A DNA stretch of 64,000 nt from Methylocapsa palsarum (GTDB lineage Bacteria; Pseudomonadota; Alphaproteobacteria; Rhizobiales; Beijerinckiaceae), in assembly GCF_900114285.1 (NCBI RefSeq), contig NZ_FOSN01000003.1:186001-250000 (forward strand). The letters run 5' to 3'. Below the pieces are notes generated by a model. That model searched no databases, was not told where the DNA came from, and worked only from the letters and a program-made list of their open reading frames with translations. Shown piece after piece: positions 57,557 to 60,437 of the stretch. The translations under genes were made by a program, and so were the position numbers. Within the stretch, counting starts at the first letter, position 1. Every line of letters begins with the position of its first letter.

Positions 57557-58060
57557 ATGGCTGCCAAATCGGATTTCTCGGCGGGTGAGTGGCATTTGAT
57601 TTTGAGCAGCCCCATGCTTGCCGGGATGGCGGTGAGTCTCGCCGACCCGAGCGGGCTTTGGGGAATGATGCAGGAAGCCATGGCGAGCGGCCGCGCGCTT
57701 CTCGACGCCAAGGACGATCCGGCCGCCGGCGCTCTGGTCAAGGCTCTCGTCGCAGATATCGAGACCTCGGAAGGACGGACAGCGGCCAAGGATGCGCTGA
57801 AGGCGGAATTGAGCGGAAAAAGCCCGGTCGAGATCAAGCAGAAGGCCATCGCCACCCTTGCCGACGTCGCCGCGATCCTCGAGGCGAAAGCGCCGCAGGA
57901 GGCGGGTTCCTTCAAATCCTGGCTTTATCACATCGCCCAGAAGGTCGCCGAGGCAGGCGCCGAAGGCGGGTTTCTCGGCTTTGGCGGCGTCAAGGTCAGC
58001 GATGCTGAAAAAGCGACGCTTGCGGAAATCGCGACCGCGCTGAAAGTCGCCGCGGTCTAG
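57557..58060 (+). CDS. Conserved protein of unknown function
   Basis: 167-residue helical, soluble protein. AGEWHLILSSPMLAGMAVSLADPSGLWGMMQEAM and, later, FKSWLYHIAQKVAEAGAEGGFLGFGGVKVSDAEKATLAEI look like a conserved family, but I can give no function. ATG 57557 (MAAKSD) is preferred to 57551 because AAGGGAG sits directly against the latter. The stop codon overlaps a transposase remnant on the other strand. Confidence 0.8.
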   Translation: MAAKSDFSAGEWHLILSSPMLAGMAVSLADPSGLWGMMQEAMASGRALLDAKDDPAAGALVKALVADIETSEGRTAAKDALKAELSGKSPVEIKQKAIATLADVAAILEAKAPQEAGSFKSWLYHIAQKVAEAGAEGGFLGFGGVKVSDAEKATLAEIATALKVAAV

Positions 58061-58190
58061 ATGTTCAGTCCCGGCATTTGATGGATTTGGATTGGATTGG
58101 GTCGATGGTGAATCGATCCGGCTCCAAAGTCCATCGTTTGCAGGTGAACCCGTAGGGCGTGAGGCCTTTTAGCGTCCTTAGCCCTCGAGC
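58057..58190 (-). pseudogene. C-terminal fragment of an IS481-type transposase/integrase, frameshifted
   Basis: Read on the minus strand in two frames, the remnant gives RGLRTLKGLTPYGFTCKRWT, then LEPDRFTIDPIQ, and, after a frame change in a small ATCCAA-type repeat, IHQMPGLNI and a stop. The pattern LKGLTPYEFxCKxWTxEP...HQMPGLNT is the common C-terminus of this transposase type. No N-terminal part is present. The stop overlaps the stop of the 57557-58060 gene. Confidence 0.55.
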
Positions 58191-58330
58191 GCACTGATGC
58201 GGTTGCGCAGGGCATGGATGGGAAAATCGACCGGGAGTTGAACCTTGGGGTTCCGGCGCGTCGGAATGACGCCGCCGGGCCCTTTTCCTCCAAAGTTTTG
58301 CGAATATCATCAACTTCGCCCCCCGTAGCG
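58191..58330 (-). pseudogene. Fragment of an IS5-type transposase, frameshifted
   Basis: On the minus strand, DDIRKTLEEKG in one frame continues, after a one-base shift, as GVIPTRRNPKVQLPVDFPIHALRNRI. That is the xxIRxxLxxxGxxxVIPxRxNRKxxxxxDxxxYxxRNxIER block of IS5-family DDE transposases, including the spacing before the last catalytic Glu, which is lost. The fragment is short and cannot encode a transposase. Confidence 0.5.
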
Positions 58331-58437
58331 ACTAAGGAAGGTCGCAACGGCCCATTCGTTGGCGAGATCTCTCTTGCCGGCTCCAGCGCTCTGTTCAAGA
58401 ATTCGAAACGTCAGCGTTTCAACTGCCTGGACGGGGC

Positions 58438-58466
58438 TTGACTCGGCCGCGCCGCCTCATCTAAAC
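58438..58466 (+). promoter_or_regulatory. Candidate sigma70 promoter of the fluoride riboswitch
   Basis: TTGACT (58438-58443), 17-base spacer, CTAAAC (58461-58466). This puts a start site near 58473, about 30 bases before the riboswitch aptamer. Confidence 0.5.
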
Positions 58467-58499
58467 TCTTGATGGATAAAGATGCGAGGCGGTTCGCCT

Positions 58500-58590
58500 G
58501 GCGTCTAGGGGATGGGGTGCCCCCTATAACCGCCGACTCGGCTGATGACTCCTGCGACGACGTAAAAGTGAGCAGGGAGTCCGTTACATG
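58500..58590 (+). promoter_or_regulatory. Fluoride (crcB) riboswitch
   Basis: The aptamer runs from TAGGGGATGGGGTGCCCCC (58505) through TATAACCGCC and GACTCGGCTGATGACTCCTG to about 58556. This reproduces the crcB-RNA plan: stem GGGG/CCCC around GATGG-GGTG, a short GCCGA-CTCGGC stem, then CTGATGACTCC. The loop GGGGT can pair with ACTCC for the pseudoknot. Downstream, GCAGGGAGTC (58572-58581) can pair with GACTCCTGC and thus hide the Shine-Dalgarno before ATG 58588. That predicts a translational ON switch with fluoride. Assigned by comparison with known crcB motif sequences from memory. Confidence 0.8.
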
Positions 58591-58623
58591 CCTCAAAATA
58601 TCGGAATACTTTTCGCGCAATAG
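58588..58623 (+). pseudogene. 11-codon frame under riboswitch control; possible remnant of a lost gene
   Basis: ATG 58588 has a well spaced Shine-Dalgarno (GCAGGGAG), yet the frame is only MPQNIGILFAQ before TAG. Other frames continue, for example GVLGFGHTPLALELFR from about 58623, but match no fluoride exporter (CrcB or ClC-F) that I know. Either the regulated gene has decayed or the short frame is a leader peptide. Confidence 0.35.
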
Positions 58624-58839
58624 GGGTTCTCGGCTTCGGCCATACGCCGTTGGCGCTTGAGCTCTTTAGAGTCTGCTTGATGAGTCACGCGCCGTCCGCG
58701 CGGGGCTATCGGTCAATCAGGCCGTGCAAAAGCGTAGAGAAATCCCCAGCGCCATTGCCGCTCTAATCTTCGAATACTTCGTTATTCGAGGCGTTGGTAT
58801 TTTTCGAGTCAAGTAAACTCAATCAACAAAGGTGAATCG
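58624..58839. other. Region between riboswitch and small membrane gene
   Basis: About 215 bases. No intact gene. It may hold decayed coding sequence that once followed the riboswitch. Confidence 0.35.
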
Positions 58840-59004
58840 ATGCAACCTACAGAGCCAGTTTCCAAACAGATCAAACCTTCTTCGTCCGAGGACAGATTCA
58901 ACGACCCCGTCGCCCGGGCGTGTTGGCAAATTTTGCTTGCAACGCGCTTCGTTCTTCCAGGAGGAATGCTCTACTTGGCGATCCGCTATTATTTTTGGGG
59001 CTGA
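58840..59004 (+). CDS. Small putative membrane protein
   Basis: 54 residues: a polar N-terminus (MQPTEPVSKQIKPSSSEDRF) followed by NDPVARACWQILLATRFVLP and GGMLYLAIRYYFWG. The last ~30 residues are hydrophobic and aromatic, compatible with one membrane segment. AAAGGTGA lies 5-12 bases upstream of the ATG. Not recognised. It is the first well-formed start after the fluoride riboswitch, 280 bases downstream. Confidence 0.5.
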   Translation: MQPTEPVSKQIKPSSSEDRFNDPVARACWQILLATRFVLPGGMLYLAIRYYFWG

Positions 59005-59080
59005 TCCGAAGGGCAAGCCAAAGCCAAAGGCTTCTGAGAGCCAATGCAAAGACTGCCAAAGAGCCGGCGCCGATTTGGAG

Positions 59081-59106
59081 CCTGCCTTCGTCGACGCGAA
59101 GGCAGG
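59081..59106 (+). terminator. Hairpin between the two small membrane genes
   Basis: Perfect 10-bp stem CCTGCCTTCG/CGAAGGCAGG with loop TCGACG. No T-run follows, so termination is uncertain. Confidence 0.35.
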
Positions 59107-59172
59107 TGAGACGTGTCATCCGCAACATCGGGTAGGCGTAGCTATCGTCCAATTTGCGAAAAGGAATAGTGG

Positions 59173-59343
59173 ATGTTCAAGATGTTCGAAGTGCTCGTTA
59201 TTCTCGTTGCCATTATTCCCATAGTCTATCTTGTAAATCTATTGCCGATCACGAATCACGCAAAAAACATCGGCGGCATATTTGTCGGCGTAACATTGGC
59301 GATGGTTGCGCTTGTCTTTCTGAAACAATTTCTCGCGTTTTAG
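59173..59343 (+). CDS. Small two-helix membrane protein
   Basis: 56 residues: MFKMFEVLVILVAIIPIVYL, then VNLLPITNHAKNIGGIFVGV, then TLAMVALVFLKQFLAF. Two hydrophobic helices are separated by a short polar loop with His and Lys. AAAAGGA precedes the ATG by about 10 bases. No family recognised. It lies on the same strand as the riboswitch and the 58840 gene, and is followed directly by a palindromic-element fragment. Confidence 0.55.
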   Translation: MFKMFEVLVILVAIIPIVYLVNLLPITNHAKNIGGIFVGVTLAMVALVFLKQFLAF

Positions 59344-59361
59344 AGAGTTGTGAAACAGAAA

Positions 59362-59431
59362 ATGCTCAAGCTTTTGAAACTGGACCGATTTCTCATCGAC
59401 CGAATGTGTCCTCCGGTGGGAAAGCGCTTAA
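59362..59431. mobile_element. MITE/REP-like element, copy 2 (right-half fragment)
   Basis: ATGCTCAAGCTTTTGA, CGATTTCT, ATCGA and GGAAAGCGCT occur in the same order as in the right half of the 7015-7130 element, but the central palindrome has diverged and the left half is missing. AAGAGCATATCG follows at about 59429. Confidence 0.6.
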
Positions 59432-59555
59432 GAGCATATCGAAATTCGAAAAATCAGAATACAACCGCGGAGGACGCCCGGGTCATCCCCGTTCCGGGCG
59501 GTGAGAGTCCGATGGTCGCCAGACCAGTCAGAACGGATCCGGACCGGTCGAAGAC

Positions 59556-60437
59556 ATGCTTAAAATCTCGGAATTCAGCCCCAACCCCGGAAATTTGGGG
59601 ATGCTAGAGTTCGTTCCCGCTCGGCTTGCCGCCTCTCCGGCGCTGGTTGTCGCGCTGCACGGCGGACAGCAGACGGCGCAAGACTTTGACAAGACCACCG
59701 GCTGGTCCGAGTTCGCCGATCAAAACGGGTTCGCGGTGCTGTTTCCCGAGCAGAAGGGCGAAAACAATTCGCACAATTGTTTCAACTGGTTCGTAGAGCA
59801 GGACATCGGCCCGGACGGCGGAGAAGTCGCCTCGATCTGCGCGATGATCGCGAACATGGTCTCCCGCTACGGGATAGATCAGAGCCGGATCTTCGTGACG
59901 GGCCTGTCGGCGGGCGGCGCCATGGCGTGTGCGCTGCTGGCAGCTTGTCCGGGCTTGTTTTCAGGCGGCGCGATCATCGCGGGCCTGCCTTATCGCGCGG
60001 CGCTTGGGACGTTCGACGCCTTTTTGGCGATGGCTTTTGCGCCGGTGCGTTCGGGGAAGGAATGGGGCAATTTAATCCGGCGGGTTTCTCCAGACCAGAA
60101 AACCTGGCCCAGGATTTCAATCTGGCATGGCAGCCGCGACGACGTCGTCGCTCCAGCCAACAGTTCGGCCATGGTCCGCCAATGGATCGACCTCCATCAG
60201 GTCGATGAGGCGGATGTGACGCAGGAGGAGGTGGACGGTCAGATCCGGCTCTCCTGGCTGAATGCGTCGGGCCTCGCGGTCGTCGAGCATTATGAGATCG
60301 ACGGCATGGCGCATGGAGTTCCCGTCAACGCAAAGTTGAACGGGGGTCATCAAAAAAGGAATCCCTTTGCTCAGGACGCGGGCATATCCTCAACCTTCCA
60401 TATCGCCCGGTCATGGGGTCTGTTGCAGTCGGTGTGA
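59556..60437 (+). CDS. PHB depolymerase-family esterase
   Basis: 293-residue alpha/beta hydrolase of the esterase/PHB-depolymerase type (LpqC-like). VVALHGGQQTAQDFDKTTGWSEFADQNGFAVLFPEQ opens the domain. The lipase box is GLSAGGAMACALLAA, the Asp is in WHGSRDDVVAPANS, and the His is in YEIDGMAHGVPV. No signal peptide is visible, so it may act on intracellular polyhydroxyalkanoate or other esters; the substrate is unproven. It starts after the palindromic-element fragment. Confidence 0.88.
   Translation: MLKISEFSPNPGNLGMLEFVPARLAASPALVVALHGGQQTAQDFDKTTGWSEFADQNGFAVLFPEQKGENNSHNCFNWFVEQDIGPDGGEVASICAMIANMVSRYGIDQSRIFVTGLSAGGAMACALLAACPGLFSGGAIIAGLPYRAALGTFDAFLAMAFAPVRSGKEWGNLIRRVSPDQKTWPRISIWHGSRDDVVAPANSSAMVRQWIDLHQVDEADVTQEEVDGQIRLSWLNASGLAVVEHYEIDGMAHGVPVNAKLNGGHQKRNPFAQDAGISSTFHIARSWGLLQSV

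Follow-up and report, generated by a model that had tools for sequence, protein, structure and literature searches.

Two accounts describe fluoride riboswitches as having guided the way to resistance genes encoding exporters, antiporters and enolase (PMC11139923, PMC7266159), and the first of these also counts formate hydrogen lyase among fluoride-riboswitch-linked genes (PMC11139923). Translational members of the riboswitch class are named in a third source (PMC13273304). We analysed a 64,000-nt stretch of the Methylocapsa palsarum genome, hereafter the window, that contains an element of this class (Rfam RF01734). Like the translational members, the window element matches the full model, has a tail that can mask a Shine–Dalgarno (SD) sequence and is preceded by a promoter-like pair; unlike them, it is followed by no full gene, and the gene found behind it in relatives encodes neither CrcB nor ClC-F. 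That gene belongs to a family of proteins of about 148 aa, and a full-length member lies directly behind an RF01734 aptamer on plasmid NZ_CP107560.1 of Methylocystis sp. MJC1, annotated as the hypothetical protein WP_253948149.1 and matching the protein of one sister genome (G002) at 43.9%. The plasmid gene has its own aptamer (L112:5889-5950) and is intact beside antiporter, crcB, DUF190 and eno genes, whereas the window keeps the first ten codons. Upstream of the plasmid family gene, behind the first aptamer of the cluster, are genes for a cation:proton antiporter and a universal stress protein, crcB and a DUF190 gene, and further on the cluster holds a third aptamer and eno. On the minus strand, this third aptamer precedes a 321-aa hypothetical protein (L112:7395-8438). 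CrcB/Fluc proteins (PF02537) are likewise small membrane proteins encoded behind fluoride riboswitches, including in this genus (L012 and L013, by eye), but Pfam searches at E up to 1 gave no match between the 148-aa family and PF02537. In the literature searched, no paper ties a fluoride riboswitch to a methanotroph or to Methylocystis; the association may nevertheless have been listed earlier.

An Rfam scan of the whole window returned three matches at the gathering threshold, two tRNAs and the RF01734 aptamer, which covers model positions 1-64 of 64 with an E value of 2.4e-12 (Table 1). The first-pass annotation had called a crcB-type aptamer here, and the RF01734 search places it well above the cut-off. 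A separate scan of 58300-58800 gave no other Rfam match at E up to 5, and no second RF01734 match was found elsewhere in the 4.1-Mb genome. The aptamer tail is coupled to a candidate expression platform, a tail–SD duplex predicted from sequence only, and in place of a regulated full gene the aptamer is followed by just an 11-codon open reading frame. Fluoride riboswitches usually precede a gene that they regulate, although this does not define the class. The absence of that gene is the sole point in favour of dismissing the RF01734 match as chance sequence rather than a riboswitch, a reading to which full coverage of the model and an E value of this size across the window leave almost no probability; judged by its letters, the element is a real fluoride riboswitch.

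Table 1 Features of the switch locus, in window coordinates
Feature	Position	Strand	Evidence
Two transposase-like remnants, left flank of the switch	58057-about 58190, about 58196-58312	-	Repeat matches; frame in copies
Promoter-like pair TTGACT-18-TAAACT (TTGACT 58438-58443, TAAACT 58462-58467; spacer 18 nt)	58438..58467	+	Promoter scan; TTGAC position shared among leaders
Fluoride riboswitch aptamer (RF01734)	58499..58561	+	54.5 bits, gathering 34
Aptamer tail GACTCCTGC, predicted to be able to mask the SD	58547..58555	+	Duplex energy; helix in minimum-energy fold
Shine–Dalgarno stretch GCAGGGAGTC	58572..58581	+	Pairing with tail; precedes ATG 58588
11-codon stub MPQNIGILFAQ*, apparent remnant of the start of a gene of the 148-aa family	58588..58623	+	N-terminus ranking; DNA match to G002
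ORF1, 54 aa, may now use the transcript	58840..59004	+	Second copy L073:782-955
ORF2, 56 aa, two hydrophobic segments	59173..59343	+	Second copy L073:1260-1430

RF01734 aptamers are present in 11 of 15 genomes of the genus, and we inspected the sequence downstream of all 26 aptamers. In G001, G002, G006 and G010 the aptamer is followed by an open frame of 148-151 aa, with a promoter–aptamer–SD unit similar to that of the window and with the N-termini MEQDVSIFLA, MDQSIGIFVA, MDQDTTVSLV and MDQNISTLLG. Hydropathy analysis of seven members of this family reveals two hydrophobic stretches, at about residues 3-32 and 36-67, and an alignment of seven members contains 22 invariant columns, including four cysteines and a GYEW motif (G-Y-E-W), both located in the C-terminal part of the protein. 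A topology of two membrane helices with an outward, cysteine-paired domain would fit these features. The protein has no match at cut-off in Pfam (best 15.8 bits against 29.8) or NCBIfam (best 15.6 bits against 783), and no match among PDB sequences at E up to 1. Among viral contigs, 89 stretches fitted a search pattern and none was a relative; a plasmid search matched the family in 1 of 72,556 records. The family is probably a fluoride-responsive membrane protein, apparently undescribed, whose role in relation to fluoride we infer.

Aptamers also precede other kinds of frame. Another group of small, hydrophobic-looking proteins lies behind aptamers in three genomes of the genus (L007:209-403, L020:386-622 and L024:217 onward, numbered from the aptamer end). 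At L006, L016 and L025 the frames behind the aptamers resemble, by eye, membrane subunits of the HyfC/NuoH type. In G006, a DUF347 membrane protein (L050:5734-6567, 203 bits) lies directly 3′ of the aptamer-linked family gene, and a second, divergent aptamer at the same locus stands before an antiporter-like frame.

When a first profile was run against 397 genomes of the order, the 148-aa family turned up in 3 genomes, two of which gave weak matches with internal stops. Across the taxonomic family, a seven-row profile then detected it in 53 of 397 genomes, spread over 4 of 43 genera, some of the matches being partial; the first search had therefore understated its spread. The genome that contains the window has no copy of the family (seven-row profile; four-row profile, E up to 1). 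Among 38 family loci, which are those returned for scanning and not every place that the seven-row profile matched, 17 carry an aptamer on the gene strand 32-62 nt before the start (13 of 20 and 4 of 18). Four of these aptamer-linked loci are in the window's own genus, four in g5, the genus that includes Methylocystis, and nine in a genus, g176, that we guess to be perhaps Methylosinus. A sub-threshold RF01734 hit of 19.1 bits, downstream of the gene at L035, was left out of the count. A second copy stands in tandem behind the first at all nine g176 loci and in G010, and the aptamer-linked copy at L127 is interrupted by an in-frame stop. Of the 21 loci with no adjacent aptamer, 13 belong to a distinct group within g5, all but one of them with a tRNA in the locus (12 of 13); the others are 4 more distant copies in G252, the G010 tandem copy and 3 partial matches. 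Some genomes are rich in aptamers, with 13 RF01734 matches in G420 (L083) and 8 in G005.

Comparison of 18 leaders, those of the window and of the 17 aptamer-linked family genes, indicates that the promoter–aptamer–SD leader is a conserved unit. TTGAC lies 60-75 nt upstream of the aptamer core in 16 of the 18 leaders, compared with 2 of 310 background bands; in the two other leaders, L123 and L126, the distance is 38-39 nt. The promoter-like TTGACT/CTAAAC pair proposed in the first-pass annotation is present in the window, CTAAAC being the TAAACT site read one base earlier, and the pair alone is weak evidence because 58300-59600 contains 2 promoter-like sites against 0.9 (sd 0.9) in shuffles. 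Pairing of the SD with the aptamer, also proposed there, was borne out by a predicted GCAGGGAGTC–GACTCCTGC duplex of -14.3 kcal/mol that 5 of 1000 shuffled SD regions equalled. This helix has one bulge and occurs within the minimum-energy fold of the window leader; taken by itself, its longest unbroken run falls short of significance (p 0.07). Over the 18 leaders, for which counts are not independent tests because the leaders share ancestry, the longest tail–SD run averages 7.06, compared with a mean of 4.95 and a maximum of 5.72 in 500 shuffles. The pairing partners covary, with TGC facing GCA, TAC facing GTA (L041 and L123) and TGT facing ACA (L125), and pairing is poor in two of the 17 family leaders, L040 and L127 (runs of 4 and 5).

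In the window, the promoter-like pair, aptamer, SD-masking helix and start codon all look intact. A dead relic, whose aptamer has lost transcription or fluoride binding, would be compatible with the lack of a full gene and with a whole-leader fold whose stability does not exceed that of shuffled sequences (z -0.85; 40 of 200 shuffles equal or better). Such decay is nevertheless improbable, since the 54.5 bits of the window aptamer fall inside the range of 49.9-59.0 bits spanned by the 17 gene-linked copies, and both the promoter-like pair and the SD helix have been kept.

The window aptamer ends 26 nt before the ATG at 58588, and the frame that opens there runs to the stop at 58623 with the 11 codons counted in the earlier reading. 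We fixed this ATG by its place behind the aptamer before ranking, and scored 10-mers. Against the four N-termini from the genus it ranks first of 1763 ATGs on both strands, with a summed score of 58 (next ATG, 28) and a best single score of 22 (against 14). By this ranking a family-like N-terminus stands at the aptamer-controlled start, and against all 17 aptamer-linked members the stub again comes first, narrowly (mean 10.24 against 9.94). At the DNA level, the stub beats shuffles when compared with the G002 gene (1 of 300 equally good), and comparisons with the three other sister genes (G001, G006 and G010) gave p values of 0.27-0.80. Similarity to the family gene stops near 58618, after about ten codons. 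No remnant of the gene was detected beyond the stub when 58623-58760 was compared with four family genes (p 0.23-0.95), and a tblastn search of the window with four family proteins found only scattered weak hits (best E 0.07). Ending after 11 codons, the frame does not reach the full length of family members, with their two hydrophobic segments and their four cysteines; by these comparisons the stub is a remnant of the family and not a member.

A CrcB or ClC exporter was considered as the lost partner and rejected, both being encoded elsewhere in the genome and not at the switch. The genome has a single CrcB match, an intact 242-aa frame on contig C55, with no RF01734 match in the 11 kb scanned around it; the ClC-type matches are on C24 and C46; and on the switch contig, C26, no PF02537 or PF00654 match was found at the locus. 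The search thus agrees with the first-pass annotation that no exporter gene lies nearby. The CrcB/ClC-F partner that the annotation implied is not supported: the stub matches the start of a 148-aa protein that has its own riboswitch in relatives.

In G001 and G002, the aptamer and family gene lie in one common neighbourhood, flanked by frames that we take for pnp and recR. Contig C46 of the window's genome is syntenic with the G002 locus, with 55 nt replacing 2769 nt; in G002 those 2769 nt hold a weakly TPR-like frame (27.3 bits, just under cut-off), the aptamer and the family gene. The window switch is at a different site, between a 169-aa frame with no Pfam match and a PHB-depolymerase-type esterase. 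By eye, the stub resembles the start of this esterase at 59556. The matched parts of the two flanking genes are 441 nt apart in G002, where there is no aptamer, and 1496 nt apart here, and the extra kilobase contains the transposase-like remnants, the switch and stub, ORF1, ORF2 and a dispersed repeat. This repeat (59357-59439) is about 70-80 nt long and occurs many times both here and in several sister genomes.

The claim that transposase fragments lie upstream of the switch is supported by dispersed copies of the remnants. Repeat matches, both within the window's own genome and in sister genomes, stop at 58312, and a transposase-like open frame is present in the copies; a Pfam search of two window frames of the remnants returned no family. 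IS family labels for the 58057-58312 remnants are presumptive. We infer that a rearrangement brought the promoter, aptamer and stub to this site, or that a deletion occurred beside an older copy; alternatively, there may have been an insertion in the G001/G002 lineage at a C46-like site. With the family gene absent and the switch at a different site, there is good support for the earlier proposal of a rearrangement that removed the gene and left the switch intact.

Downstream of the stub, ORF1 and ORF2 each have a second copy in the genome. ORF1 is 76% identical to its second copy, with dN 0.06 and dS 0.87 over the last 37 codons, and ORF2 has dN 0.19 and dS 0.83 over 56 codons; with dN low relative to dS in these single short pairs, both are probably genes. 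ORF1 has no hydrophobic segment at the hydropathy cut-off used and was not found outside this genome among 149 family genomes, and a DNA search of 15 genus genomes lists the ORF1 and ORF2 stretches in this genome only. The switch might have been co-opted, with a transcript that runs into ORF1 and ORF2 and a fluoride response through transcript supply or through the 11-codon frame as a leader peptide. Both frames look like selected genes on the same strand, and ORF1 starts 279 nt past the aptamer; in addition, the aptamer-linked 64-aa protein of L007 is weakly like ORF1 (41% over 27 aa, E 1.8e-4) and has relatives behind aptamers in L020 and L024. However, the L020 and L024 proteins have no direct match to ORF1, no aptamer accompanies the second ORF1–ORF2 pair of the genome (C54), and the sequence common to both copies of the pair begins only near 58748. 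The masked SD also belongs to the stub and not to ORF1, and downstream of the stub there are 2 terminator-like sites, against 2.0 expected by chance. We therefore regard co-option as unlikely. Of the two alternatives offered in the first-pass annotation, loss of the gene holds, with the lost gene of an unnamed kind, and present control of something new finds little support.

The window probably holds a translation-controlling fluoride ON-switch that was orphaned by rearrangement and whose cognate gene belonged to the 148-aa membrane-protein family, with fluoride binding, the ON direction and the order of events being presumptive. In the absence of fluoride, the aptamer tail GACTCCTGC would pair with the SD and mask it. 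In this riboswitch class the tail takes part in a pseudoknot, and in the presence of fluoride the tail would be held there, leaving the ribosome site free. The switch would formerly have driven a membrane protein of this family, which has two hydrophobic segments and four cysteines in its C-terminal part. At present, about ten codons of that gene would survive at another chromosomal site, and the switch would open an 11-codon frame.

The 148-aa protein could be a new fluoride-resistance factor of Methylocystis and a few genera related to it, induced by fluoride, often encoded in tandem and acting in the membrane with or beside CrcB, of which the window lineage would have lost the protein and kept the switch; we offer this tentatively, as a proposal that could well be right and is slightly more apt to fail. 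The family has 17 aptamer-linked copies in three genera, one member inside a plasmid fluoride cluster, and no name in Pfam or NCBIfam. The logic by which riboswitches lead to resistance genes points here to this unnamed membrane-protein family, which we consider more interesting than the orphan switch itself. A riboswitch that would have outlived its gene also provides a case for asking how long orphan switches last and whether they are taken over by downstream genes.
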